This document shows, piece after piece, positions 11,893 to 27,733 of a DNA stretch of 37,111 nucleotides. Each line of letters begins with the position of its first letter. The stretch's first letter is position 1. Position numbers and translations under genes: made by a program. The notes under the pieces are model-generated. The model did no database searches. It saw only the letters and a program-made list of their open reading frames with translations, and was not told where the DNA came from. The stretch is from a virus, in the IMG/VR virus record IMGVR_UViG_3300019093_000614, positions 1 to 37,111 of that record; one strand, 5' to 3'.

Positions 11893-14052
11893 TTATGCAG
11901 ATTTTGTATAAGAGCTTTGTTGTTCTGTTTCTTTAAACTTTTCAAGAACTATCTTGTAAAACGCTTCTTTAAATTCTTGTTTGTCTATCATCGCATAAAA
12001 TCTTTTAGTATCTAACTCAGGAGGTGCGTCTATTCTCCAAGTAATATTACCATCAAATGTATGCATATGTGATTCTGTATTTTTTGAAAAATTATCTGTT
12101 GAGGGAGTAGACGATGATTTAACCAAACTTCTAACATTATATGCAGAATCTCTATTAATAGGTGTCCCAACAGGACTTTTTATATTTTTTGCAATTTCAC
12201 TAAGTATATTATTACTTTTTTCAGTTAGTCCATTTGTAATACCAACTTGACCTGCAATATCCGCAAAACTAGATTTAAACGCATCAGAAATATCAGTAGG
12301 AATTCCAACAACATATTTTGATTTACCTATTGAAGCAAATAACTCTGTTAATCCTTTATCCCCAATATTAAGAGCTCCAGTATCAATTGTAGTTACAGAT
12401 AACTCTTTTTTATTTGGAAAATCATCAAATTTTGGATATGAATTTTTTGGACTATATTTTGGAAAGTCATCAACTTTTGAATATTTTCCATCATTATTAT
12501 CAAACCAATTTGTCATCTTTTCAAATAATTTTGAAAGGTCAACCGATGGCAAATCATATCTATCTTTAATTTTTTGAGGTATTTCTTTTTTTATGTCTCC
12601 CGACATACCCATTATCTTATCCTTTAATTTTTCAAAATCAAATATCCCTTTAGTTGTTTTCTCCAAAGATTCAAAATCTAATCCGACACTTTCACCTCTA
12701 ATCATTTTTGAGATTATTTCTTTAACATCTCCAATTGTCTCATCTACTTTTCCCCTAACCGCTTTTTGGTCAACATTTTTATTTAAAGTATCAGTCACAA
12801 TTTTTCCAATTTGTCCAATATCTTCAGCAAAATTACTGACTTTTGGAGCAGATACAAAACCGTAAACCAATTTATCTCTAATGGCTCTCATGTCTCCGGC
12901 CATTGCCTCAATATTGTGTAATTGGGCTCTTTGCATGCTCTCTAAATCTTTTGGTCTAGTTTTTTCTTCTTCTATTAAAATGTCTAACTGGTCCTGAGTT
13001 AAATCTTGTAATTTTTTTGTTTCTGTATTTCCTTCTTTATTTACAATATCTACAGTATATTCACCACCCTTTCCCATCTTGGCAATATTTGCCAAATACA
13101 TCTTATCTTCCTCGTTTTCAAATTTCAAAGAAGGTCTTAACATGGAAAGTTTTCTATCCAAATCCGCAGTGTTTAATGCTAATTTGGACATCTCAGATGC
13201 CATAAGTCCTGTTTGGTCTTGAAGTTCTCTCAATTGAAGCATTCCTGCAGGATTTATTTTAAATGATTTTGTTTTTTCATCAAAATAAGTGAATTGCTTT
13301 GTCATTTCTACAATACTATCTTGTAAACCCTCTGGGTCGTTCAATGACTTATACATTAATTCAAATGGGTCGGTTAATCCACCAGCAGAGATTCCTAACC
13401 TTTGAAAGGCGGATGATAACTCAATTGCACCTTGTGGGTCTAAAGCTTTGTCGGCCAAAGTAAAAACCTGACCCATATCAAATTTCATTAAGGTTGCTTG
13501 AGTTGCCATTTTTGTTAAACCTAAAACGCCGTCTTGGAAATTGAACCTATTCATTTGGCTCATATTTTCCATCACTTTACTCATTACCGCTCCAGCATTA
13601 GCTCCAACACTTTGAATATAATCTATAGATTCTTTTATTTGAGGTCCTACTTGTGAAAATTGAACTCCGACATCTTGAAATCCTTCTACAAGCGTTTTAA
13701 CGTCTATACCCGTAATTTGCATTGCCGAATATAATTTCGTTATATCTTCAGTAGATGCCACAACATTTCTATTTGTCGCTTCTGATACTTTTCTTATTGT
13801 TTCAACCGCGTCATATGAAGTACCCCCCAATCTATCAATTGCAGGAATTGCGTCGGCAACCGCAGTTTTTAACTCACCAATTCTTTGTCTGCCTTGTCCA
13901 AATTGTTTATTTATCTCTAAAGCAGCGCCTTCAATATCTCCAAAAGCATCTTTTATATTACCAGCATCAAATTTCAATTGGTTTGCTAGTTTACCAAAAG
14001 TTTCAATAATTCCTGTAGGGTCACCAATATTGGGTATTTTGTCTGTTGCCAT
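11893..14052 (-). CDS. Putative tail tape-measure protein
   Basis: This 719-residue protein is predicted to be largely helical and has no clear enzyme motif. The first 330 residues resemble the coiled, Ala/Gln/Met-rich part of phage tape-measure proteins, for example FGKLANQLKFDAGNIKDAFG and LIVEGFQDVGVQFSQ-like stretches. The later part is a lower-complexity, Lys/Asp/Ser-rich region with repeated KYSK and PKYSP pieces, and the C-terminus is charged. Its position fits a tape measure: it lies directly after a gp26-like assembly protein with an out-of-frame extension, and before the baseplate genes. The tape measure sets tail length and is threaded inside the tube. T4 gp29 is about 590 residues, so the size is compatible. 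No transmembrane segment is obvious. Another internal baseplate or tail protein is possible. Confidence 0.6.
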   Translation of the reverse strand: MATDKIPNIGDPTGIIETFGKLANQLKFDAGNIKDAFGDIEGAALEINKQFGQGRQRIGELKTAVADAIPAIDRLGGTSYDAVETIRKVSEATNRNVVASTEDITKLYSAMQITGIDVKTLVEGFQDVGVQFSQVGPQIKESIDYIQSVGANAGAVMSKVMENMSQMNRFNFQDGVLGLTKMATQATLMKFDMGQVFTLADKALDPQGAIELSSAFQRLGISAGGLTDPFELMYKSLNDPEGLQDSIVEMTKQFTYFDEKTKSFKINPAGMLQLRELQDQTGLMASEMSKLALNTADLDRKLSMLRPSLKFENEEDKMYLANIAKMGKGGEYTVDIVNKEGNTETKKLQDLTQDQLDILIEEEKTRPKDLESMQRAQLHNIEAMAGDMRAIRDKLVYGFVSAPKVSNFAEDIGQIGKIVTDTLNKNVDQKAVRGKVDETIGDVKEIISKMIRGESVGLDFESLEKTTKGIFDFEKLKDKIMGMSGDIKKEIPQKIKDRYDLPSVDLSKLFEKMTNWFDNNDGKYSKVDDFPKYSPKNSYPKFDDFPNKKELSVTTIDTGALNIGDKGLTELFASIGKSKYVVGIPTDISDAFKSSFADIAGQVGITNGLTEKSNNILSEIAKNIKSPVGTPINRDSAYNVRSLVKSSSTPSTDNFSKNTESHMHTFDGNITWRIDAPPELDTKRFYAMIDKQEFKEAFYKIVLEKFKETEQQSSYTKSA

Positions 14053-14060
14053 AATATGTT

Positions 14061-14070
14061 AATAAATACA
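14061..14070 (-). promoter_or_regulatory. TATTTAT box before the tape-measure gene
   Basis: TGTATTTATT on the coding strand, 8 bases before the tape-measure ATG. It begins exactly where the 14070-14096 hairpin ends, so hairpin, box and start codon are contiguous. Confidence 0.45.
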
Positions 14071-14096
14071 AGAAGGACTGTTTTTCAGTCCTTCTT
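14070..14096 (-). terminator. Hairpin between the assembly-chaperone and tape-measure genes
   Basis: An 11-base perfect inverted repeat (14070-14080 with 14086-14096) encloses a five-base A/T loop. The stop codon of the out-of-frame extension (14085-14087) lies at the loop and 3' arm. On the minus-strand RNA it is followed by TTGTATTTATTAAC, a poor U-tract, so it may be a weak terminator, a stability element or a regulatory hairpin. On the plus strand it is followed by GTTTTCTTT. Confidence 0.55.
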
Positions 14097-14264
14097 GTTT
14101 TCTTTATACCACTTATCTAACAAATATTTTCTTACAAAAAGAGGCATTTCTGTAAATTCATTCCACCCTACTTTTAATAAAGTTGCCAAATAATAGAATT
14201 CATCCAGTTGTCCTTGTCTATAATCAGAAGAAAGGACGAAAAAAGTCAACCCCAAAACCAACAT
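14085..14264 (-). CDS. Out-of-frame extension of the tail assembly protein (T-like), possibly made by frameshifting
   Basis: After the stop of the gp26-like gene the coding signal continues in the next frame. It reads DYRQGQLDEFYYLATLLKVG, then a WNEFTEMPLF/VRKYLLDKWY stretch, and ends at a TGA at 14085. The pattern (a helical segment, then a MP-x-[FY]-x-RKY motif) looks like the small proteins that accompany tail assembly proteins just upstream of tape-measure genes in phages. The frame could be entered in two ways. One is a +1 (or -2) ribosomal frameshift at the TTTTTTC at 14238-14244, giving a fusion of about 293 residues. The other is an independent ATG at 14264, giving 59 residues whose first 13 are only a shadow of the upstream gene. 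I prefer frameshifting because tail chaperone genes are known for it (lambda G/GT uses -1, Mu uses -2). Confidence 0.55.
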   Translation of the reverse strand: MLVLGLTFFVLSSDYRQGQLDEFYYLATLLKVGWNEFTEMPLFVRKYLLDKWYKENKKD

Positions 14265-14967
14265 TAACTGTTAGTCTTTCTCCTGATGGGGTATTAACTA
14301 TTCTAGACATATCAAGCCTTGGCTCATTTTCATCTAAAAATTTTTTAATGTATTTAGAATCTAAAATTGGTAATTGTTCAATTAATTTAGCAATCTCTCC
14401 TTTATCTGTTGTTCCATTGGCTTCTATAATTTGTCTTTGTAGTTTCATTGTAACTGAAGGTACAACCCTTCCTTGAGGATAAATTGCCAAAGATTTATTA
14501 ATTTCTCTTATCTCACCGTATGTAAGTATTTTTAGTTTTACAGTTGTATTACTTTTTGGTAAAGTCACCGTAAATGTCCCATCAGGATTTGGGTCTTGAC
14601 CTTTTTTAATTGATAATTGGTCAATCAAAACATTAGCGGTAAATGACTTATCTGTTTTTGGGTCTGTAAGATTAAGTGATATTTCAGGGCCAAAAGATGT
14701 ATTTCTTAAAAAGATAAGAATTGCTTCAACATCACCTTCAAGTAAATCATCAACACGGATATCCGGTTCATAAATTTTTGCCCTAAGTAAATTAATTGCA
14801 ACATCTTCTCCACCCGCCATCAAAATATTTTCGTCAGACGCAGTTAAATACCCAACCTTAACTGATTTCTTTTTATTTTTATAAAAAACACCTTCTGAAG
14901 GTAAAGGTACTACATCATGTGGTAATGTTAGGTTTTCTTGTGCGTATTGTCTTGTTTGTTCATCCAT
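14224..14967 (-). CDS. T4-type baseplate/tail-assembly protein (gp26-like)
   Basis: This 247-residue protein matches the pattern of the T4 baseplate protein family (gp26-like). It has a LPSEGVFY segment near residue 22, then KVGYLTASDENILM near 36-50, then VDDLLEGDVEAILIFLRNTS at about 72-91. A later segment, PNPDGTFTVTLPKSNT, replaces the Cys-rich part seen in some relatives. The gene sits between the tail tube and the tape measure, where many phages encode a tape-measure chaperone, and it has an out-of-frame C-terminal extension. It may therefore act as the assembly chaperone and not be a structural subunit. The ATG at 14967 follows a terminator-like U-tract directly, which is unusual. Confidence 0.65.
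   Translation of the reverse strand: MDEQTRQYAQENLTLPHDVVPLPSEGVFYKNKKKSVKVGYLTASDENILMAGGEDVAINLLRAKIYEPDIRVDDLLEGDVEAILIFLRNTSFGPEISLNLTDPKTDKSFTANVLIDQLSIKKGQDPNPDGTFTVTLPKSNTTVKLKILTYGEIREINKSLAIYPQGRVVPSVTMKLQRQIIEANGTTDKGEIAKLIEQLPILDSKYIKKFLDENEPRLDMSRIVNTPSGERLTVNVGFGVDFFRPFF
14238..14244 (-). other. Candidate +1 (or -2) frameshift site TTTTTTC
   Basis: In the zero frame the codons are GAC TTT TTT CGT, six codons before the TGA at 14224-14226. A phenylalanine tRNA on the second TTT could move one base forward and pair fully with TTC. That opens the frame that encodes the T-like extension. A -2 shift would reach the same frame. Confidence 0.4.
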
Positions 14968-15010
14968 ATATAAAAAAATTAACCCTAAACGTTTATTAGT
15001 TTAGGGTTAA
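14968..15010 (-). terminator. Rho-independent terminator immediately before the gp26-like ATG
   Basis: A perfect 12-base stem (14979-14990 with 14999-15010, core AACCCTAAAC) with an 8-base loop is followed on the minus strand by seven Ts and then ATATATG. It lies 20 bases after the endonuclease-like gene ends and would stop its transcript. The U-tract runs straight into the next gene's start codon. Confidence 0.75.
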
Positions 15011-15015
15011 ATATA
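15006..15015 (-). promoter_or_regulatory. TATATTTA box overlapping the 5' arm of the terminator
   Basis: The coding strand reads TATATTTAAC. Its last bases are the first bases of the terminator's 5' arm (15010-14999). If RNA begins several bases downstream, most of that arm is missing and the terminator cannot fold. Confidence 0.4.
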
Positions 15016-15030
15016 ATTGTGTTTTTATTT

Positions 15031-15939
15031 TTATAAAGACAATCTATTTCTTAAATCGGAAATAATCCATTCAGGTCTTTCGTTAATATCTTTTTCCCAA
15101 TAACGAATTAAAGTAATGTTGTGGTTTTCACACCAAGTATTCTTTCTTTTGTCGTTTGATAAATTTTTTTTCTGTATATCATATTCAGCGAATGAGTATT
15201 TACTATTAGGGTTGCAATGATAAAAATCCCCATCAACTTCTATCATTATTTTATTAATTGGAATATAAAAATCAAAAAATGTTTTAATGTTTAATATTAA
15301 ATGATTGTGAATATAATCAATATCTTTAACATACCCAATTTCATTTAATATTTCAATAAATTTATCTTCTAATTTAGAAGTTTTTACTTTTGAATTTTTT
15401 CTCATCCACTCCAACTTATATTTAGATTGATTAATTTTTAGTTGAGGATTATCTTCATATCGTTTTTTTTGTGAAATTGATAATTTACGTTTTGACTCTT
15501 CTGTTTTTGGAACTCCTTTTAATTTTTTAGATATTTGTTTACCTCTATCTTTATTGTTTCTTAATTTTTCTTTAATTCCTTCTATTTTTTTTAAAGTGTC
15601 TTCAGATTTATTTTCCCACCATCCAATATATTTCCCTTCTTCCCAATTTTTCTTTTGAGTTTCAGCGGCTTTTTGACGAGTTTTCGGATTTTTATGAAAA
15701 TTGTTTTTTCCTGAAACTCTATTATGGTGTGATTGAATAAATCTTGAAAACCCTTTATTTATTGTAATAAATGGGGGTCTGCCACCGCAACCACATTCAC
15801 ACTTTGGTTCTAACCCATTTAAAACATATTCAATATAAATTTTATCACCACTTATATTGTGTTTTTGTGAAGAATGACTTCTTAATGAATTAAGACCGTC
15901 ACATTCTTTTTCGCATATATTACAAATAAAAATTCCCAT
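15031..15939 (-). CDS. Putative free-standing homing endonuclease (zinc finger, NUMOD3-like, Vsr-like nuclease)
   Basis: I chose the ATG at 15939 over the one at 15966 (9 codons upstream) because it lies 3 bases after a TATATTTACT box. This gives 302 residues. At the N-terminus there is a C2H2-like finger (CNICEKEC followed by H-x4-H), then a second Cys cluster, CECGCGG. The middle is Lys-rich with SKKLKGVPKTEESKRKLS, a NUMOD3-like DNA-binding motif. The C-terminus has an acidic nuclease pattern: SKLEDKFIEIL, then FFDFYIP, then IEVDGDFYHCNP. This resembles the Vsr-like/EDxHD homing nucleases. Its position between two tail genes, as an extra gene with its own signals, fits a mobile endonuclease. 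There is no sign of an intron or intein in its neighbours. Confidence 0.7.
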   Translation of the reverse strand: MGIFICNICEKECDGLNSLRSHSSQKHNISGDKIYIEYVLNGLEPKCECGCGGRPPFITINKGFSRFIQSHHNRVSGKNNFHKNPKTRQKAAETQKKNWEEGKYIGWWENKSEDTLKKIEGIKEKLRNNKDRGKQISKKLKGVPKTEESKRKLSISQKKRYEDNPQLKINQSKYKLEWMRKNSKVKTSKLEDKFIEILNEIGYVKDIDYIHNHLILNIKTFFDFYIPINKIMIEVDGDFYHCNPNSKYSFAEYDIQKKNLSNDKRKNTWCENHNITLIRYWEKDINERPEWIISDLRNRLSL

Positions 15940-15960
15940 ATAAGTAAATATACGGGAATT
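15931..15960 (-). promoter_or_regulatory. Hairpin enclosing the box and start codon of the endonuclease-like gene
   Basis: The arms at 15931-15942 and 15949-15960 pair over 12 positions in minus-strand RNA, one of them G-U. In plus-strand RNA that position would be an A-C mismatch, so the structure suits the minus transcript. The start codon (15937-15939) is in the 3' arm and the loop is part of the TATATTTACT box (15943-15952). The stem is followed by TTTATTTG, so it may also act as a terminator for the tail-tube transcript. Confidence 0.6.
15943..15952 (-). promoter_or_regulatory. TATATTTACT box, 3 bases before the endonuclease ATG
   Basis: TATATTTACT-TAT-ATG on the coding strand. It has the same spacing as the boxes before 17805, 25534, 26268 and 31021. 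It spans the loop and part of the 5' arm of the hairpin at 15931-15960. Confidence 0.45.
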
Positions 15961-15999
15961 TAACAATATTGTAAATGGTTAGATGTATTTTATTAAAAA

Positions 16000-16488
16000 C
16001 TAATACACGAGCACACAACGGTCCATTCTTAAAGTACTTGTTATTGTTGCAAGTCCATCTTGGTTATAAGCCAACTGATTGAAGTTAACGTCTGTAAGGA
16101 ATGTACCATATAGAATCCATTTTTCAACAACAACTCCTGTTGGGTCCAACATTTCAAGGTCAATATCTTTTTTATAACCCGCAGCATAACCCATACGACC
16201 TGTAACAGACTCTGCATGTAGACGTACCCACTCCATAAGAGCTTGTGACGCAGAAGGTCCAATTGGGTCTCTAAACGTTACGTTAATGGTTTGCCAGTTA
16301 AATCTACCAGCAACATATACTGATGTGTTTAAAAAAGGAATTTCTGTTGCCGCTATTGTAATGTGTGGTCTTGCAGTACTTTCTACAAACCACTCATTAA
16401 TGCCTAAACTTGATGGAAACCTCAAGATAAAACGGTTCTGACGTTTCGGTTCATAAGGTATCGGCATTTTCATTAGTAAATCAGCCAT
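16000..16488 (-). CDS. gp19: Tail tube protein (gp19-like)
   Basis: The 162-residue protein matches the T4 gp19 tail-tube family in size and pattern. The N-terminus has PYEPKRQNRFILRFP. A conserved segment FNWQTINVTFRDPIGPSASQ is followed by LMEWVRLHAESVTGR. The C-terminal half has GYKKDIDLEMLDPTG and ends in the strand-rich LATITSTLRMDRCVLVY. The protein stacks as hexameric rings inside the sheath to make the tail tube. It is encoded downstream of the sheath gene, but two small genes lie between them, which is not the usual gp18-gp19 adjacency. Confidence 0.9.
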   Translation of the reverse strand: MADLLMKMPIPYEPKRQNRFILRFPSSLGINEWFVESTARPHITIAATEIPFLNTSVYVAGRFNWQTINVTFRDPIGPSASQALMEWVRLHAESVTGRMGYAAGYKKDIDLEMLDPTGVVVEKWILYGTFLTDVNFNQLAYNQDGLATITSTLRMDRCVLVY

Positions 16489-16524
16489 GTTATTTTAATT
16501 TAAAAATTTTTTATTTATTTATTA

Positions 16525-16534
16525 TATAAATATG
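16525..16534 (-). promoter_or_regulatory. TATTTAT box upstream of the tail-tube gene
   Basis: CATATTTATA on the coding strand, about 36 bases before the ATG. The leader between them is almost entirely A/T, with no clear Shine-Dalgarno sequence. The remainder of the 16489-16588 gap shows no other gene or strong hairpin. Confidence 0.35.
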
Positions 16535-16588
16535 TGAGTATCAAAAATAATTTCTATTTACTTTTATTTTAGATAAAATTATATTGTA

Positions 16589-17413
16589 TTAAGCTTCTTT
16601 TTTAGTTCCAGTTGCAGTAGAATAAGTCTTAACTAGTTTTTCTGGTTTATCTGCAAAATGTTTTTTCATTACTTCTACATTTTTAGGGTCATCATCTGAG
16701 AATCCAATCATAGGAACTCTAGGAACAAATTCATTACCTAAATCTTTTTTGATATAAGCTCTTTTATTTAATATTGCTGCCATACCTTTTATATAAGACA
16801 CAAAATCATCCATTGCCATAACTTTTAATTCTTCAGGACTTTCTGCACCTCCAACACCAAAAGTAACAGGATGATATTTGTTGAGTTCCAAATATGTTTT
16901 TATAAGTTCTTTGTCTGACATTTCTTCGTCTCCAACAAAAGACCTATATTTTCTTAAGTTTTTAATTAATTCTTCTTTATCTATTCCACCAAATCCTGTT
17001 ATAATATAATTGTATACCGCTTGCTTTAACGTTTCAGGATTGTGACCTCTTGCGGTAATAATTGAAAATATTGAACCGTTATTAATTGCTTCTTTGAAAT
17101 CTTCAAACGCGGGACCTTTTTTAGCCTTTAACGTATCTATAAGAAATTCTTTATCTCCTTCAGTTCTAAAATTTCTGAAAGGATTTTCAGCATACCCAAC
17201 AATTTTTTCACCCTTATAATCTATAGGGTTTTTACCTAAATCATGTCTGTATTTTGCAAAATCTTCTGTACTCATGCCAATCTCATCACCATCTTCAGTT
17301 TTTAACATAATTTTTGTTGGCATATGAACAATGTTATCGTCCCAATCAAAAGCATAATACTTCATGTTTGGGGTGGTCTCATCCTTAAAACTTTCTTTAA
17401 TAATGTAAATCAT
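16589..17413 (-). CDS. HAD-superfamily phosphatase-like protein with a virion-type N-terminal tag
   Basis: The 274-residue protein has the HAD signature in order. AFDWDDNIVHMPT at residues 21-33 carries the DxD pair (D23, D25). IITARGHNPE around 118-127 supplies the motif II Thr. GFSDDDPKN at 237-245 supplies the acidic motif. Such enzymes are typically phosphatases acting on small molecules, proteins or nucleic-acid ends, and the substrate here is unknown. The N-terminus MIYIIKES is shared in form with the next gene and with the gene at 22374. A second ATG at residue 17 starts closer to the domain. The gene lies between sheath and tube genes, so it might be packaged or used during assembly, but that is inference. 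Confidence 0.7.
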   Translation of the reverse strand: MIYIIKESFKDETTPNMKYYAFDWDDNIVHMPTKIMLKTEDGDEIGMSTEDFAKYRHDLGKNPIDYKGEKIVGYAENPFRNFRTEGDKEFLIDTLKAKKGPAFEDFKEAINNGSIFSIITARGHNPETLKQAVYNYIITGFGGIDKEELIKNLRKYRSFVGDEEMSDKELIKTYLELNKYHPVTFGVGGAESPEELKVMAMDDFVSYIKGMAAILNKRAYIKKDLGNEFVPRVPMIGFSDDDPKNVEVMKKHFADKPEKLVKTYSTATGTKKEA

Positions 17414-17417
17414 ACCA

Positions 17418-17427
17418 TATAAATATT
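17418..17427 (-). promoter_or_regulatory. TATTTAT box before the HAD gene
   Basis: AATATTTATA on the coding strand, 4 bases before the ATG at 17413 and within the 23-base gap after the preceding gene. Confidence 0.4.
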
Positions 17428-17436
17428 TGTAATTAG

Positions 17437-17805
17437 TTATTCTACAACTTTGGCGTTTAAATCAAATTCATTGTTAATCCACTGTATAAATGGTTCAATC
17501 CATAAATCATCAAACAAACTATTAAAAGTATCCGATATACTACTATCTAATGTAAGTAAAGGACATTTTTGTAATACCTCATATGCGTTTTCATTAAAAT
17601 AATCACATTCATAATATCTGAAAAGTTCACCTTCTCCATAATAATCACCAACATAAAAAAGTGTTTTATTAGTGTCTTCATATTCTTCTCCATCCGGAGT
17701 CTCCTCAATTGGATTATGAGTTTTTACTTCATCAATATTAATGTATTGACCAAATAATCTTATCATTGCAGTATGAAGTCTAGATTCTGTTATGATGTAT
17801 TTCAT
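17437..17805 (-). CDS. Hypothetical acidic protein with I-x-E-S N-terminal tag
   Basis: This 122-residue acidic protein is not one I recognise. It begins MKYIITESRL, which resembles the starts of the HAD protein (MIYIIKES) and the protein at 22374 (MIILISET). After about residue 30 the sequence has many Asp and Glu residues and aromatic clusters (YVGDYYGEGELFRYYE). It ends with DLWIEPFIQWINNEFDLN, probably a helix. There are no visible enzyme or transmembrane motifs. It is transcribed just after a terminator and from its own box, between the sheath and the HAD gene. Confidence 0.6.
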   Translation of the reverse strand: MKYIITESRLHTAMIRLFGQYINIDEVKTHNPIEETPDGEEYEDTNKTLFYVGDYYGEGELFRYYECDYFNENAYEVLQKCPLLTLDSSISDTFNSLFDDLWIEPFIQWINNEFDLNAKVVE

Positions 17806-17808
17806 AGT

Positions 17809-17818
17809 TATAAATACA
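17809..17818 (-). promoter_or_regulatory. TATTTAT box, 3 bases before the 17805 ATG
   Basis: TGTATTTATA-ACT-ATG on the coding strand, within a short palindrome (17808-17825). It follows the sheath terminator directly. Confidence 0.45.
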
Positions 17819-17821
17819 TTT

Positions 17822-17856
17822 ATAAATAAAAAAACCCCTCACTAAGGAGGGGTTTT
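17822..17856 (-). terminator. Rho-independent terminator of the tail sheath gene
   Basis: A perfect 10-base stem (17831-17840 with 17847-17856, core CCCCTC/GAGGGG) with a 6-base loop is followed on the minus strand by a run of seven Ts and then ATTTATA. It lies 20 bases after the sheath stop. On the plus strand it is followed by only a weak T-run. Confidence 0.85.
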
Positions 17857-17875
17857 AATATAATCTAAATTGTTA

Positions 17876-20800
17876 TTAGATATTTTCAAACGAAGCACCT
17901 GTTGGTGTAATGAAGAACTCAATATCTATGAATTCTAACGCCTTCGTTGGTTTAAGGTAAATTTTACCTGTAAGTGTGTTTCTATCCAAATCTTCAGGTG
18001 AAGAAGATACAGTCACACGGAAATCGTAAAGACCTCTATCTCTTCTTATTGAATCAAGGATTGGATTGACACTATCAAGGAATTGTTGTCTAACAATTTG
18101 GTCGTTTTGTTCAAACAATAATCTAACCGCTACTGCTGAAATTAACTTACGAGCTTGAAGTAACAATCTTCTAACATTTAATCTGTTAAGTGCTGTATCC
18201 GCAACTTGTAATGTTTTATTACCCCAAATTACAGTTCCTACATCAGAAAAAGTTGCGATTGGATTGATTCTACCTTGATACAAAGTATCTCTAACTTCTT
18301 GAGTTAGTTTCAATCTAGCCTTTACAGAGTTTACAAGACCTCTTGTGTAACCCGCTGATGCGAACCAAGGAAACGCAATGTTATCTGTTAATGCCAAGTT
18401 TCTACAAACTTCACCTGTTGGTGGTAAATAAATTTGTGTATTGGTAACAGTATCTCTTGTAAGTATCCAAGGGTAGTAAGTTGCAGTATAGTTAGAATCA
18501 AGTCCAGTGTTGTCCAAATTATCAACCGCATTTTGTGGATAAATAATTTGTTGAGGGTCAGTACCGTCTGGAGAATACATTGGATAGTCAGGTGTTGTTG
18601 CAATATATACCGAGTCAGCTCTTGAGAACTGAATCATATTAATTGCTTCTGCAACCAAAGCGGGATTATTAACGTAATCAATACTTGTAGTTGCGAATAC
18701 ATTAATATTTGTTGATTCAGGATTTGCAAATGTTAAAATACCAAGTAAATAAGCGTAGTAATCACTGTTTGCAAAATCTTGAGTGTTGTTTTCAACGACA
18801 ATTCTCTTGAACATACCTTGACCTGTTGCGGTTGGGTATCTTGCGGATGGAGCAGCTCCAGCTAAATATCCTGAAGACCCAAGTCTGAATCTATCTTCAT
18901 TTGTTCTATATTCTCTATAAATGTCCCATCCGTCAAATCCACCGGCAAAACACACTGTATACTTTCTTGAATAGATGAAGTAGTATGGGTTTTCTTGACT
19001 TTCAGGGTCATTTCTGAATTCTGCAACACCACAATCAAAAGCGACTTGACCACTAGTAACATATTCACTTCCAATTGTAACAACAGTTGCTCCTGAGTCC
19101 ATATGGAAACCTTGAGTTAAATAATTCCAAGGAGTACTTATTTCCGCAGTGTTAAAATCGGTTACAGGGTTTCTTTTACCTTTATATTGTAACAAAGAAA
19201 TATCTACAGGAATTTTTGTTGAGAATCCTAAATAAGTTCTCCTAACATTATCACCACCAGAATCAACACCTACTCCAAATGGAGGTGTATATATTGGTTC
19301 GCCAGGGTAGTCGTATTTAACTTTATAAATTGGTATTGGTGATTTATTAGTAAGATTTTCATAAACTCTTTGGTCATATCCGTAGAATCCACAAGGAAGA
19401 GCATCTATTGGGGCTTCCTCTGACAAATCAACCATAATATATTTTGAATTCAAAGGATATTCACCGTCATAAGAACCTATTTTTTTTGCAACAAAATTAT
19501 TTGACGCTGGGTCCATATTACAACTCGTGAATTTTTCAATAACTACAGGATTTTGGTCAGTATCAAAAAAACTTCTAACAAGTACATCAAAAGTACTATT
19601 ACCGAATGATATGTTAGCAATTGAAACTTTAACTTCAGTATTAGCCGAGTCTCCATCTGATATAGATATAAATCTAAACAGTTTGTAAACTTTATTACCT
19701 CTTAATTCAGAAACTAAAAATGGTGTTAATGGTGTTTGATACTTTTCCAAGTTCCATGCAATAGAATTACCACTTAAACTTCTTGCGTCTGCAAGTTCAA
19801 CCATATTACAATTTAATCCACGAATGTAACCTTTATTATAAAGATAATCTAATTCCGTAGGGTATACCTCCTCAACAAAAATCGGAACTTCAAGTCTGGA
19901 TTTTCCAAAGTTATCAACGCCTAAAACTTTAGTTATAAATTTAGAACTTGTACTTGCGAAAGAAGTCTCAAACGAGAAAGTTTTTGAATCTTTAGTAACA
20001 CCCGACAATAAGAAAGTTGCGTACGGACTTAAACTAATACCAGAATAAGAACCAGTACAAACCAAATTTAAATCAGTTAATCCTGATACTTGATAGACAG
20101 GTCCATGATTTGTTGAATTGTAATTTGAAATACCTCTTGAACGTAAAGTTGCAATTACAAGATTATTATATTGTGAAAAAGCAGTTCCTGAATATGAATA
20201 CACATTACCTGACAAAGTTCCTGTATAAGTAGAACTTGCACCTGAAGCCATATTTGAAACTACATAACTAAAAGAATATCCTGAATAACTATTTCCTGAA
20301 TAATTTGTAAAATTAGAATAAAACCAAGAACTATTATCTGATGAAGTTAAATCATTTGAACTTAAGTTTAATGAGTCAACACTTAAAGCATTCACTAATA
20401 TAGTACGAATACTACTAAGTGAAGTGTACGCCGAACTTGGTATTGAACCATAAACAATTGCCGTTGTTGCAGAAGTTGATGGAGTGTCCATAAAATCATT
20501 AACATAAGCAGTAAAATCACTACTAAGTGTAGATACACTACCATCTGATAATGTATATTGTTTTGATAAATTTTGTAGAATTGGGTAAGGGAACGTTCCA
20601 AAAGAAACCGTGTTTGCAGAAGAACTTCCTGTAAATCCAACTGTCCAAGTAGTTCCAACTGCGGAACTTAATCCTACTGTTGAACCATCTACATTTGCAG
20701 TGGTTGTTATAGTCCATGATGGACCCGCATCATATCCTGACAAACCCAATACTCTTGTTACAAAAAGTTGATTAGATTGTTGTAAATATGATTTTGCAAT

Positions 20801-21046
20801 ATATGCTGCTTCATATTTTGGAATTTGTGTATTAACAAATTTTGTAGGTTCAGAACCTCCGAAGAATGATTGGAACTCATTGTAATTAGTAATAAAAATA
20901 GGTTCAAATGCCGGACCTTTTAAAGTCTCGCCAACTAAACCAAGTGTAGTTACACCTACACTTTGCGCCACAAAAGATAAATCTGTTTCTGAGGTATAGA
21001 CACCCGGAGAAACAAATACTTTTTGATTAGTCTGTACTGTTGCCAT
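17876..21046 (-). CDS. gp18: Tail sheath protein (gp18-like), enlarged
   Basis: The 1056-residue protein has the typical sheath start, VFVSPGVYTSETDLSF, followed by GLVGETLKGPAFEPI and a SYLQQSNQLFVTRVLG segment by residue 101. The conserved C-terminal region includes FPWFASAGYTRGLV, VRRLLLQARKLI and a closing RRDRGLYDFRVTVS/TGKIYLKPTKALEFIDI stretch. Sheath subunits polymerise around the tube and contract during infection. T4 gp18 is 659 residues. The extra length is partly a Ser/Thr/Tyr/Gly/Asn-rich insertion at about residues 105-365, probably a surface domain. A strong terminator follows the gene and a TATTTAT box lies about 30 bases upstream. Confidence 0.93.
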   Translation of the reverse strand: MATVQTNQKVFVSPGVYTSETDLSFVAQSVGVTTLGLVGETLKGPAFEPIFITNYNEFQSFFGGSEPTKFVNTQIPKYEAAYIAKSYLQQSNQLFVTRVLGLSGYDAGPSWTITTTANVDGSTVGLSSAVGTTWTVGFTGSSSANTVSFGTFPYPILQNLSKQYTLSDGSVSTLSSDFTAYVNDFMDTPSTSATTAIVYGSIPSSAYTSLSSIRTILVNALSVDSLNLSSNDLTSSDNSSWFYSNFTNYSGNSYSGYSFSYVVSNMASGASSTYTGTLSGNVYSYSGTAFSQYNNLVIATLRSRGISNYNSTNHGPVYQVSGLTDLNLVCTGSYSGISLSPYATFLLSGVTKDSKTFSFETSFASTSSKFITKVLGVDNFGKSRLEVPIFVEEVYPTELDYLYNKGYIRGLNCNMVELADARSLSGNSIAWNLEKYQTPLTPFLVSELRGNKVYKLFRFISISDGDSANTEVKVSIANISFGNSTFDVLVRSFFDTDQNPVVIEKFTSCNMDPASNNFVAKKIGSYDGEYPLNSKYIMVDLSEEAPIDALPCGFYGYDQRVYENLTNKSPIPIYKVKYDYPGEPIYTPPFGVGVDSGGDNVRRTYLGFSTKIPVDISLLQYKGKRNPVTDFNTAEISTPWNYLTQGFHMDSGATVVTIGSEYVTSGQVAFDCGVAEFRNDPESQENPYYFIYSRKYTVCFAGGFDGWDIYREYRTNEDRFRLGSSGYLAGAAPSARYPTATGQGMFKRIVVENNTQDFANSDYYAYLLGILTFANPESTNINVFATTSIDYVNNPALVAEAINMIQFSRADSVYIATTPDYPMYSPDGTDPQQIIYPQNAVDNLDNTGLDSNYTATYYPWILTRDTVTNTQIYLPPTGEVCRNLALTDNIAFPWFASAGYTRGLVNSVKARLKLTQEVRDTLYQGRINPIATFSDVGTVIWGNKTLQVADTALNRLNVRRLLLQARKLISAVAVRLLFEQNDQIVRQQFLDSVNPILDSIRRDRGLYDFRVTVSSSPEDLDRNTLTGKIYLKPTKALEFIDIEFFITPTGASFENI

Positions 21047-21076
21047 TATTTTTTAGTTTCTTGTTTATTTATTTCT

Positions 21077-21086
21077 AATAAATATT
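21077..21086 (-). promoter_or_regulatory. TATTTAT box upstream of the sheath gene
   Basis: AATATTTATT on the coding strand, 30 bases before the sheath ATG. The A-rich leader between them has no good Shine-Dalgarno sequence. It lies in the divergent gap 21047-21164. Confidence 0.35.
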
Positions 21087-21164
21087 CTAAATAAAATGAA
21101 AAAACTTTACTTTTATTAATCTATTTGTATTTAGTATGAATAAATTCTACTTTTTTTATCTTTC

Positions 21165-21332
21165 ATGTCTAAATTAACTGATAACAATATAAAGAACATA
21201 AAAATCTCAGAAGACGTACATAAAGTACTAAAAAATTATTGTGATAAAAAAGGAATTAAAATTTACAAGTTTTTGGAACAATTAATTATTGAAAAGTGTA
21301 AAGATAAAAAAGATATTTACGGAGAGTATTAA
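21165..21332 (+). CDS. Small ribbon-helix-helix-like DNA-binding protein
   Basis: This 55-residue ORF encodes MSKLTDNNIKNIKISEDVHK followed by VLKNYCDKKGIKIYKFLEQL. A short strand with alternating residues (IKNIKIS), then two helices, is the layout of Arc/MetJ-type ribbon-helix-helix repressors. It is the only plus-strand gene among the minus-strand tail genes. It diverges from the sheath gene, and its TAA overlaps the stop of the minus-strand gene at 21329 within TTAA. A 13-codon ORF starting at 21136 overlaps its start in another frame. Size and context suggest a regulator, but the target is unknown. Confidence 0.65.
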   Translation: MSKLTDNNIKNIKISEDVHKVLKNYCDKKGIKIYKFLEQLIIEKCKDKKDIYGEY

Positions 21333-22372
21333 ACTAATTTGTTGCTAAAAATTATTTTTGATTCTAATGAATTATTAGTTTTAGTAATTTCAATTCTTAA
21401 TATATCGTTAGTGTTAATTAATATTCTATTAACATTATTTCCAAAATATTGGTTGTTAATGTAAACATTCCAAGAAGTAACATTATTTACTTGGGAAACT
21501 TCCATATCAATAGGGTAATCCATCAATTCACTTAATATGGTATTACCTGTTACAAATAAAAAGTCTAAATCAAAAACATCAGGATTTTTAGGGTTTAACT
21601 CATTTTTCTTTCCTTTTGGAGAATTTGGAGAAACTTCCATCATAGTTAAAACTCTATTTATCGCTGGAGATACTTCAAATTCTTCCTCATCAATAAGATA
21701 TCCTAACATTTGAAATTCGTAATTTTGACTATAATATTTTCTTTTATCCAAATCCATAATACTTTCATCCTGAATACCATTCATAATAATTGGTATATAT
21801 TGACCCTTAACGAAAGTATATGCTTGTCTTGAAGAAAATTTTTGTAATACTATTTTGTTGAATTCATTAAGTTCTCTCATTCTATTACAAACTATTCTCA
21901 CGTTATAAACAATATCAACAGGAACTGGTTGAGGTATCTTATATACATCCATTCCTTCTTGGTTTCCGTTCCATGTTGGAACTGTTGCATAATAAAATTC
22001 TTTTCTATTCGGTATTGTCCATTGAAGTGATGGGTTTGTGCCATACTTAACTTCTGGTTGTCTTACTACCGTAATGAATGGAGGTTTTACGTTAAAATCT
22101 TGGTCAACAAATTCCCAAGTTTCTGTAAATTGTGACCAGTTTTGGGTTGTTAATATTATGTCCAACATTGGAACTAATTTACCTGACACAACCAAATTTA
22201 AACTATCTTTTACAAAATCTAACATACCCCTGTCCAAATCAGAATGTAATACTGATTTTGGCAAATAAGTTCCATCCTTATTAATATAATCTTTAAGTTG
22301 TTCTCTACGGGGAAGAAGAGTTTTTTTATACTGTAAAGGTAATGTTTTTTTTATTTGTTTTGGAAATCCCAT
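21329..22372 (-). CDS. Putative tail-completion/neck protein (gp15- or gp3-like)
   Basis: The 347-residue protein shows segments seen in tail terminator and sheath-stabiliser proteins of T4-like phages. LVVSGKLVPMLDIILTTQNW is followed by SQFTETWEFVDQDFNVKPPF, then a VPVDIVYNVRIVCNRMRELN strand-helix unit and KFSSRQAYTFVKGQYIPI. From about residue 265 there is a separate small beta domain (VTSWNVYINNQYFG). It starts one base after the stop of the 139-residue gene, so it is translated from the same message. In T4, gp15 and gp3 cap the tail before it joins the head. The assignment is by pattern and position only. Confidence 0.5.
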   Translation of the reverse strand: MGFPKQIKKTLPLQYKKTLLPRREQLKDYINKDGTYLPKSVLHSDLDRGMLDFVKDSLNLVVSGKLVPMLDIILTTQNWSQFTETWEFVDQDFNVKPPFITVVRQPEVKYGTNPSLQWTIPNRKEFYYATVPTWNGNQEGMDVYKIPQPVPVDIVYNVRIVCNRMRELNEFNKIVLQKFSSRQAYTFVKGQYIPIIMNGIQDESIMDLDKRKYYSQNYEFQMLGYLIDEEEFEVSPAINRVLTMMEVSPNSPKGKKNELNPKNPDVFDLDFLFVTGNTILSELMDYPIDMEVSQVNNVTSWNVYINNQYFGNNVNRILINTNDILRIEITKTNNSLESKIIFSNKLV

Positions 22373-25533: not shown

Positions 25534-25695
25534 ATGGGAAGAAAATTAAAAACAAAAGAAGAAAAAAAAACTAAAGTATCGGTAGCATTAGACCCCGAAT
25601 TATTAACATACTACAGAGGTCTTCATATTAATTTATCTTCTCTTGTTAATAAATTACTAAAAGATTATAGAAAAAATGGAAACAAAGATTTGTAG
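25534..25695 (+). CDS. Small ribbon-helix-helix-like DNA-binding protein
   Basis: From the ATG at 25534 this gives 53 residues. The N-terminus is lysine-rich (MGRKLKTKEEKKTK). Then comes KVSVALDPELLTYYRGLHIN, a strand and first helix of ribbon-helix-helix type, and SSLVNKLLKDYRK as the second helix. It is the second such protein in the window, and the two are not close in sequence. The end overlaps the start of the HNH gene by 20 bases. The function is probably DNA binding and regulation, with an unknown target. Confidence 0.6.
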   Translation: MGRKLKTKEEKKTKVSVALDPELLTYYRGLHINLSSLVNKLLKDYRKNGNKDL

Positions 25696-26239
25696 TAAAT
25701 GTAGTTTAGAAAAAAAATTAGATGATTTCCACAAGGATAAAAATAGAAATGACGGATATTACGTCCATTGTAAACTGTGTCGTAAACTAATTTATCAATC
25801 TAACTCTGTAATAATTAAAGAAAAAAATAGAAAGTATTATTACGATAACAAAGAAAAAAACCATAAAAAAAGTTTAGAACGAAATAGATTATGGAGAAAG
25901 AATAATCCTTCATACACCACAGATAGAAAAAAAATTGACCCAACATTCAAATTAATTAAAAATATTAGAAGAAGATTAAATAGATTTATAAGTTTTACTT
26001 ATTTTACGAAAAGAAATACAACAATACATCATATTGGTTGTTCTCCCCAAGAATTAAAATTGTCTTTAGAAAAAAAATTTATTGATGGAATGACGTGGGA
26101 AAATTATGGAAAATGGCACATAGACCACATAATTCCATTATCATCCGCAAAAACAGAAGAAGAATTATATAAATTGTGTCACTACACTAACCTACAACCT
26201 TTATGGGCGATAGATAATCTTAAAAAATCAAACAAATAA
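25676..26239 (+). CDS. HNH endonuclease with N-terminal zinc ribbon (homing-type)
   Basis: In this 187-residue protein the N-terminus carries two Cys pairs (C6/C9 and C32/C35) that probably bind zinc. The middle is strongly basic. The C-terminal HNH core is WHIDHIIPLSSAK (147-159), followed by YTNLQPLWAIDNLKKSNK, giving the Asp-His pair and the later Asn residues of HNH nucleases. Such free-standing genes in phages are usually homing endonucleases, though some help in packaging. Its position, between a small regulator and a neck gene far from the terminase, favours homing. It overlaps the preceding gene by 20 bases. Confidence 0.82.
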   Translation: METKICSKCSLEKKLDDFHKDKNRNDGYYVHCKLCRKLIYQSNSVIIKEKNRKYYYDNKEKNHKKSLERNRLWRKNNPSYTTDRKKIDPTFKLIKNIRRRLNRFISFTYFTKRNTTIHHIGCSPQELKLSLEKKFIDGMTWENYGKWHIDHIIPLSSAKTEEELYKLCHYTNLQPLWAIDNLKKSNK

Positions 26240-26267: not shown

Positions 26268-27389
26268 ATGTCAGTAATAGCAGAACCAGAAAGAAGTAAA
26301 ATTTATACAAGAATTAAACATTTATTGGGTGCCCCAATCAGAAGTGTTGAGGTTGAAGATGAAATGATGGATTCCTTATTGGAATTATCAATTGGTGATT
26401 ACGAACAATACATTCTTGATTGGTTAATTGAATCTCAATGGGTTAACCTTGTCAATTTAGATATGAAAAATCAATCTGTAGCAAACGCATTGATTACAAG
26501 AACAATGAATTTTGAGCAACAATTCCAATATTCATATTCTAAAATTGTTGGATTACAAACAGTTGGTCCGTGGGCATTGAAAAAAGATTATTTTACATTA
26601 AGTGCAAACACACAAACATATGAAATTCCTGCGGGTAGAGAGGTTAATGAGTTATTGTGGTATAGTAATCAATCTATGGGAATGTTTGGATTTGGTGGGG
26701 TTGGGCTTGGATTTGGATATGATGGTGCTGGTTTAGGTGGAACTCAATCTGGATATGCACAATTTGGGTATCAAGGGTCGTACTTTATGATGTCAGGATT
26801 TGATTATTTAATAAGAGCTCAAGAAGGTAATATCCTAAATAGAATTTTAGGTGGTAACTTAACATATAGAATAACTGGACTACCTGACGGAAAAAAATTA
26901 ATTCATTTAATGAATACTCCTGGTGGAAAATTCAATTGGTCATCATATAGTAATTATATTGGTACAAATGTTTGGTATTGGTATTATGATACCACAGGTA
27001 AAGATAGAAATGATTGTTTAAAACAAAATCCCGATATAATTAAATTACCTACAGATGTTCCTATTGGAGAATTATTGTGGGATGACTTAAATGAACCCGC
27101 AAAACAATGGGTTAGAAGATGGTTTACCGCATATGTTAAAGAAACACTAGCCAGAGTTAGAGGAAAATATTCAGGTAATTTAAAAACACCCGATTCAGAA
27201 ATTCAGATGGATTATACAAGTCTTTTAACTGAAGCCAAAGATGAAAAGTCTAAATTAGAAGAAGAACTCAAGTTAAGATTAGAAAGACTAAGACCAGAGA
27301 AACAAATGGAGAAAGAAGCACTAATAGCCGAAAATCTTAATAAACAACTTAAATTTCATGCTTTCCCAAGACAAATTTATGTAATATAA
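26268..27389 (+). CDS. Putative neck/head-completion protein (gp13-like)
   Basis: In this 373-residue protein the N-terminus, KIYTRIKHLLGAPIRSVEVE followed by DEMMDSLLELSIGDYEQY, resembles T4 gp13 and related neck proteins, which begin with a helix, a LGxP turn and an acidic VxxxxMxDxL helix. A Gly/Phe-rich stretch at about residues 135-175 (GFGGVGLGFGYDGAGLGG) is low complexity. The C-terminal quarter is a charged helix (KSKLEEELKLRLERLRPE). In T4, gp13 closes the filled head and binds gp14 before tail joining. Here it is on the opposite strand from the other virion genes. Confidence 0.55.
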   Translation: MSVIAEPERSKIYTRIKHLLGAPIRSVEVEDEMMDSLLELSIGDYEQYILDWLIESQWVNLVNLDMKNQSVANALITRTMNFEQQFQYSYSKIVGLQTVGPWALKKDYFTLSANTQTYEIPAGREVNELLWYSNQSMGMFGFGGVGLGFGYDGAGLGGTQSGYAQFGYQGSYFMMSGFDYLIRAQEGNILNRILGGNLTYRITGLPDGKKLIHLMNTPGGKFNWSSYSNYIGTNVWYWYYDTTGKDRNDCLKQNPDIIKLPTDVPIGELLWDDLNEPAKQWVRRWFTAYVKETLARVRGKYSGNLKTPDSEIQMDYTSLLTEAKDEKSKLEEELKLRLERLRPEKQMEKEALIAENLNKQLKFHAFPRQIYVI

Positions 27390-27397
27390 TTGTTATT

Positions 27398-27733
27398 ATG
27401 GCAATCATTAAAAGTATACCCTCGCAAAGAATTATTCACGGAAGAATATTAAACACATCAGAAGTATCTATTGTATCTGAAACGGATTACAGAACACAAG
27501 GTGAAGATTGTGTTGTTGTTAAAGATGTACTGTTTTCTAGAATTGTTTTAGATTCAAGGACAACAGACCATACAGTAATTAAGGCTTTAACTAAAATTAC
27601 TATTACACCAGATGTTGGAAAAATTGATGAAGAGTTTGATGAAATTGAGGCAGATAGAGGGGCTTGTATTGAGTTCAGATTTTGTGGTGGTAGTTGGTAT
27701 ATTTTATCATCGGACGGATTAAAACAATCATAA
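27398..27733 (+). CDS. Hypothetical protein, possibly virion-associated
   Basis: The 111-residue protein begins 8 bases after the gp13-like stop and ends at the two-way terminator. It has a beta-rich pattern with EFRFCGGSWYILSSDG near the C-terminus. This style of ending (a Gly-rich strand, then SWxI.S.DG) recurs in phage surface proteins. I do not recognise a family. It has no own TATTTAT box, so it is probably co-transcribed with the neck gene. Confidence 0.55.
   Translation: MAIIKSIPSQRIIHGRILNTSEVSIVSETDYRTQGEDCVVVKDVLFSRIVLDSRTTDHTVIKALTKITITPDVGKIDEEFDEIEADRGACIEFRFCGGSWYILSSDGLKQS

Follow-up and report, generated by a model that had tools for sequence, protein, structure and literature searches.

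In a 37,111-nucleotide stretch of DNA from a T4-like phage (IMG/VR record IMGVR_UViG_3300019093_000614, referred to here as the window), the start codon of a free-standing endonuclease gene lies within a hairpin that also holds a promoter-like box. On sequence grounds, we regard it as probable, though well short of certain, that this hairpin is an RNA insulator of a selfish nuclease gene with a built-in late-type promoter. This reading is based on the stem, its conservation and covariation, wobble pairs confined to the sense RNA, the enrichment and spacing of the box motif and the recurrence of the layout across endonuclease families, from which we infer promoter activity, the RNA start site, the block to translation and its purpose. 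RNA reading through from the tail tube gene upstream would contain both arms of the hairpin, leaving the AUG and its surroundings paired so that ribosomes could not start. RNA polymerase acting at the box would instead begin the transcript about at the AUG, and this RNA, lacking the 5' arm and the loop, would form no hairpin and would be translated leaderless or nearly so. In this way, the promoter of the gene itself, and not the tail operon, would determine the dose of endonuclease, with partial termination at a T-tract at the base of the stem possibly contributing.

A homing endonuclease gene at the tail tube locus

The gene (minus strand, 15031..15939) encodes a protein of 302 amino acids with an EDxHD/Vsr-like C-terminal nuclease domain and an N-terminal part that is zinc-finger-like and carries a Cys cluster. 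It matches homing/HNH endonucleases in PHROG, and residues E191, D223, E234, D236 and H241 are invariant among its homologs. No Pfam family scored above threshold for the protein, and a PDB sequence search with it returned nothing useful. An AlphaFold model (pLDDT 80.5, pTM 0.45) was compared with the PDB using Foldseek, for which the best match was 3r3p, the catalytic domain of I-Bth0305I (probability 1.00, TM 0.76 by target, E 2.3e-3), with Vsr among the top five structural matches. By sequence and modelled fold, the gene product is an EDxHD-type homing endonuclease that has the catalytic-domain fold (PD-(D/E)xK-type) and the E/D/E-D-H residues in common with I-Bth0305I and Vsr, but differs from them in its N-terminal part.

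The co-directional tail tube gene (minus strand, 16000..16488; PHROG 4542 tail tube, E 1e-23), whose end is separated from the endonuclease ATG by 60 nt, would be the source of read-through RNA. Downstream lies a baseplate gene (minus strand, 14224..14967; T4_baseplate, PF12322), which adjoins the tail tube gene in relatives without the endonuclease. In most of these relatives the tail tube stop codon is followed by approximately 40 nt, a terminator-like hairpin and then the baseplate ATG. In the window, this native junction hairpin (minus strand, 14979..15010) is now found downstream of the endonuclease, indicating that the insertion, which brought in the gene together with its own hairpin, took place between the tail tube gene and the native junction hairpin, and the native tail tube terminator has come to lie ~930 nt further downstream. 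Such an insertion pattern suggests that the endonuclease is capable of homing. The window contains a second endonuclease gene (25676-26239), which is endonuclease-VII-like (phrog_1035), is preceded by a small open frame and has no box-hairpin.

A hairpin over the start codon

The minus strand from 15961 to 15930 reads AAATTCCCGTATA-TTTACT-TATATGGGAATTT and forms 13 base pairs, including one G-U pair, around a 6-nt loop (5' arm 15961-15949, loop 15948-15943, 3' arm 15942-15930). The initial annotation had described a minus-strand stem of 12 pairs with a G-U pair (15960-15931), and our analysis upholds that stem with its 13 pairs. Also as described there, the ATG (15939-15937) is inside the 3' arm, the box (15952-15943) occupies part of the 5' arm and the loop, and full pairing is possible in minus-strand RNA only, because the wobble between G at 15953 and U at 15938 would become an A-C mismatch in plus-strand RNA. 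An upstream TTG (15966) was considered as the endonuclease start and ruled out by homologs of the L088/L116 type, in which a stop codon (TTG TGA) is found in frame upstream of the ATG.

The 61-nt hairpin region folds at -17.6 kcal/mol with RNAfold (z = -5.2, 0 of 200 shuffles). The bare stem is not rare, as in shuffled minus strands the mean number of stems with 12 bp or more, 3 or more of them GC, is 1.7 per 37 kb, and the maximum in 30 shuffles is 6. Since stems of such length are not rare in this AT-rich window, the case for the hairpin rests on comparison with homologs.

A homolog search of viral contigs identified 92 relatives, 80 of which were retained, and the same hairpin covers the ATG in nearly all close and medium endonuclease homologs. 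In a set of 20 distinct, symmetric hairpins from homologs, 97.7% of cells pair, and a shift in register of 1-3 positions reduces pairing to 19-65%. Three pairs in these 20 hairpins are changed on both sides, which 0 of 500 shuffles reach, the p-values being optimistic because the hairpins come from related sequences. The ATG is kept in the endonuclease homologs, and variants of the protein start (MGI, MGN and MEF) are accompanied by a matching change in the non-coding 5' arm. In the 23-sequence homolog set, we counted 19 sense G-U or U-G wobbles and no A-C or C-A. This restriction of wobbles to the sense strand points to selection on the sense RNA and not on a DNA inverted repeat. The evidence beyond chance for the hairpin is therefore comparative, consisting of conservation, covariation and the sense-only wobbles.

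The wobble counts bear directly on the idea that the inverted repeat is a protein-binding site in DNA, for example an operator for autorepression by the endonuclease. The repeat does overlap the promoter-like box, and I-TevI represses its own expression through an operator that overlaps its late promoter (PMC2988022). A DNA repeat should tolerate A-C and G-U equally, however, which the 0 and 19 observed do not fit, and the endonuclease families discussed below have the layout in common and not the stem sequence. We consider a DNA-level operator improbable.

In more distant homologs, the arrangement varies. L152/L154 carry TATATTTATA in the loop of a hairpin that ends just before the ATG, and L156/L158 use ATCCTCCTC..GAGGAGGAT, keeping the idea with a different sequence. 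The box-hairpin is absent from homologs L134 and L149, and no homolog of the endonuclease was found in named phages. A subgroup represented by L083 / G006 36623 has an extra in-frame ATG upstream of the hairpin, so that translation of read-through RNA might run through the stem there. Two different endonucleases follow the tail tube gene in tandem in L095 and L114, each with its own promoter-hairpin. L124 also has such a pair, with 3 nt between the first gene and the start of the second, which lacks a hairpin.

The promoter-like box and the predicted RNA start

The box in the window, TATATTTACT (minus strand, 15943..15952; mostly TATATTTAT in homologs), takes in the last part of the 5' arm and the entire loop. 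Its core, TATTTAC (15950-15944), is one base off the genome-wide motif ATATTTAT; L082 carries TATATATA. Within the window, TATATTTACT with one mismatch is not over-represented (15 occurrences vs 12.5 expected). We examined the regions upstream of 549 genes in 12 contigs (~1.1 Mb, window included), where ATATTTAT is present in 142 of these regions in sense compared to 21 in antisense orientation, in agreement with the proposal of the initial annotation that the box is promoter-like. The same set of genes revealed no conserved -35 element at these boxes. Box starts peak at 11-13 and 20-23 nt before the ATG, and where the box lies far from any ATG (156 cases), 75-80% of the bases at +11 to +13 from its start are A, making these positions the likely RNA start. 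ATATTTAT is a promoter-like motif found genome-wide, with putative promoter activity and a putative start site. The spacing peak predicts leaderless mRNAs for ~60 genes of the 12 contigs (G001-G020) and the window, structural genes among them.

Position +11 from the window box is 15939, the A of the ATG, and the RNA made from the box is therefore predicted to be leaderless, starting at the AUG (15937..15939, +11 to +13 from the box core start). The earlier proposal was that read-through RNA buries the start codon and that a transcript beginning in the loop is free of the hairpin. In silico, the stem is maintained in the sense RNA and the box transcript would lose the 5' arm, as proposed, while the predicted start is moved from the loop to the AUG itself, 11-13 nt past the box core start.

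No Shine-Dalgarno (SD) sequence precedes the endonuclease ATG, and SD-like words occur at chance level in the 12 contigs (26 vs 24 of 976 genes). Given that the genes lack SD sequences, it is the start codon and not a ribosome binding site that would be buried. In F. johnsoniae, SD-less translation is tuned by structure near the start, and most of its mRNAs have leaders (PMC6847099). A Bacteroidota host is likely for these phages. TATTTAT is also found before 16 of 34 genes (5 antisense) of the cultured Flavobacterium phage immuto, and in 9 of 25 (3 antisense) in Microcystis phage Mel-JY01, where it is typically ~40 nt upstream with an SD-like sequence in between.

Late promoters of T4 have no -35 element and have AT-rich start regions (PMC2988020). 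The boxes described here also lack a -35 element genome-wide and have an A-rich start, yet a -35-like TTTACA is conserved at the endonuclease gene. A gp55-like protein of ~232-250 amino acids is encoded once per contig in all five relatives longer than 129 kb (L223 = G001 92566, L224 = G003 95073, L225 = G002 101483; G004, G005), and the match is weak but consistent (phrog_234, E 0.003-0.014 in direct scans). This conserved protein is a candidate late sigma factor. There is no match to it in the 37-kb window, which is itself a fragment, and PHROG 12791 (late sigma) gave no match, its control also being silent.

The TTTACA element (minus strand, 15970..15975) is located exactly 17 nt before TATATT, and TTTACA or TTGACA is found at this exact spacing in two unrelated endonuclease families at the tail tube locus. 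When scored as a match to TTGACA at 4 or more of its 6 positions, a -35-like element is present in 25 of 37 EDxHD sequences, in all 9 of the phrog_3339 family and at 26 of 358 other boxes. A scan of 12000-22000 for sigma-70-type promoters was not above chance (59 vs 51), with TTTACA-N17-TATATT among the best matches. The element may be an operator or a -35 that a host sigma factor recognizes, and its conservation hints at a second or different type of promoter. Should it serve as a -35, the endonuclease may additionally be expressed from its own promoter ahead of late time.

A box of the same motif class, TATTTAT, is located upstream of the tail tube gene (minus strand, 16526..16532). Judged by gene identity and motif, the transcription unit upstream of the endonuclease is late-type and not early or middle. 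The initial annotation had likened the locus to T4 I-TevI; the hairpin with a putative late-type promoter inside it fits that likeness, but a tail tube gene with its own late-type box at 16532-16526 does not fit a switch between early and late timing. Therefore, the probable purpose is insulation of dosage.

Recurrence on other endonuclease genes

A scan of gene starts revealed box-hairpins over the ATG of the GIY-YIG endonucleases G002 51203 and G001 41172. Scanning viral contigs for the pattern CCATATATTTAT-N1..24-ATATGG returned at least 120 stretches, and among the matches listed are Vsr-like phrog_3339, GIY-YIG/NUMOD1, endonuclease-VII-like, HNH and DUF723 proteins. These families have a common layout and not a common stem sequence, a recurrence that the initial annotation had missed. 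After clustering of the matches listed at 90% identity, a stem reaching 3 or more pairs past the pattern is seen in 16 of 25 clusters of endonucleases compared to 1 of 16 others (p = 2e-4), and at 35% identity in 6 of 9 compared to 1 of 12 (p = 0.009), some endonuclease labels in this comparison having been assigned after the stems were seen, from similarity to scanned members or from motifs by eye.

The stem could conceivably be a functionless by-product, given that an AT-rich box beside ATGG is self-complementary (ATATA/TATAT) and codon choice could provide the rest. The inner pairs do come nearly free, and there are structural genes that match CCATATATTTAT..ATATGG with no further stem. What a by-product would not account for is the outer extension, which distinguishes the endonuclease clusters from the others, nor the tracking by the non-coding 5' arm of codon changes in the 3' arm. 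We view this explanation as the least probable of those considered, marginally below that of an operator.

For 270 boxed genes, we calculated how much more it costs to open the start region in read-through RNA than in RNA begun 11 nt past the box start; counting pairs across the predicted start was discarded in favor of opening energies, as it is too permissive in AT-rich DNA. The median gain is 9.4 kcal/mol for endonucleases with a co-directional neighbor (n = 19) compared to 2.0 for other co-directional genes (n = 199; p = 1.1e-6, with p-values in this test inflated by related genes). The window endonuclease ranks 8th of 270 with a gain of 12.3 kcal/mol, and some genes that are not endonucleases also score high. 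Endonucleases with a divergent neighbor have a median gain of 6.0 (n = 7). A smaller gain would be expected here if read-through were the problem that the hairpin solves, and the difference from co-directional endonucleases is suggestive and not conclusive (p = 0.053). The stricter prediction that endonucleases with divergent neighbors lack the hairpin has G009 56972 as a counter-example.

Several other genes carry similar structures. Strong box-hairpins cover the ATG of three genes not known as endonucleases (G001 95910-97685, 152640-154124 and 58795-60012), the first two of which have upstream neighbors that are intein-like by eye. G009 26418-27581, TnpB/OrfB-like by eye, has a box at -12, a structured start and an opening gain of 10.7 kcal/mol. 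A 15-pair box-hairpin lies over the start of a 123-aa protein in L301 (11825-12193).

A more serious rival, also overlooked by the initial annotation, is partial termination. According to this explanation, the hairpin is a terminator with an embedded promoter that acts on RNA polymerase and not on ribosomes, the stem and T-tract ending transcription of the tail tube gene and the box restarting it. The T-rich tract TTTTTATTT at the stem foot (minus strand, 15924..15932) is flagged as terminator-like and could be a weak intrinsic terminator; the U-rich tract is present but interrupted, and the stem contains only 3 G-C pairs, which speaks against a terminator. In energy, the stem is close to the native junction hairpin (-14.6 vs -14.7 kcal/mol), and the displacement of the native terminator also favors this rival. 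The native junction is built in a similar way, in that a TATTTAA-type box (TATTTAAC) abuts the 5' arm of the terminator-like hairpin right before the next ATG in 44 of 50 distinct junctions (window 14979-15010; L002-L081). Moreover, a weak internal terminator has been described for T4 mobE (PMC2988022). A terminator would not require the AUG to be within the stem, however, and although a T-tract also follows the stem in the Vsr-like family, none follows the GIY-YIG and HNH-type stems (G002 51203, G001 41172, L252, L292). Start hiding is consequently the common denominator of these cases, and we assign the terminator a minor but appreciable share of the probability, with insulation by a hidden start codon as our preferred reading.

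Comparison with known systems and implications

Hairpins that hide a translation start are known for I-TevI, I-TevII, I-TevIII, segB, Aeh1 mobE and the T4 genes e, soc and 49, with late promoters freeing the start where studied (PMC2988022, PMC3014915). A close parallel is T4 I-TevI, along with I-TevII and I-TevIII, in which a hairpin hides the start of a homing endonuclease in RNA initiated upstream and a late-type promoter located there gives hairpin-free RNA (PMC2988022, PMC3014915). Those genes are intron-encoded, belong to the GIY-YIG or HNH type and have a hidden SD sequence or ribosome binding site, whereas the gene described here is free-standing, of the EDxHD type and SD-less, with a buried AUG at which the RNA is predicted to start. 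The initial annotation had suggested that this might be an independent case in a free-standing endonuclease, but it is not the first, as T4 segB and mobE of Aeromonas phage Aeh1 are free-standing homing endonucleases with a start-hiding hairpin, in their case sequestering the ribosome binding site, and a late promoter (PMC2988022). mobE sits in an interrupted nrdA gene and segB in a tRNA region, while here the upstream gene is structural and late-type and the stem lies over the AUG. The T4 late genes e, soc and 49 likewise have an inhibitory structure on long transcripts, and for gene e, transcripts begun at late promoters within the region of the arm are missing the 5' part and are translated well (PMC3014915). 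These are SD-dependent phage genes with the box TATAAATA, unlike the mobile element and ATATTTAT box here. The present system would operate in the manner of the known hairpin systems. It differs from them in that an AUG is hidden where the genome lacks SD sequences, RNA is predicted to begin at this AUG, the upstream gene is late-type and the layout recurs across unrelated families of one phage group.

We put at about even the chances that this promoter-in-hairpin cassette is common to, or arose repeatedly in, homing endonuclease families unrelated to one another (EDxHD, Vsr-like phrog_3339, GIY-YIG and HNH/EndoVII-like) in T4-like phages infecting SD-less, probably Bacteroidota hosts. In such a cassette, the choice of RNA start would decide whether the AUG is buried or a leaderless late mRNA is made, and the gene would be insulated from read-through of structural operons. 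This would extend the I-TevI/mobE principle, known from T4 and Aeromonas phages, to uncultivated T4-like phages, a large group in which the device must work without SD sequences. The same solution on unrelated nucleases bears on the need of homing endonucleases for tight control of dosage, and on how an invader may fit into a late operon without damage. It also yields a testable late-promoter motif and predicts that leaderless late mRNAs are widespread in these phages.
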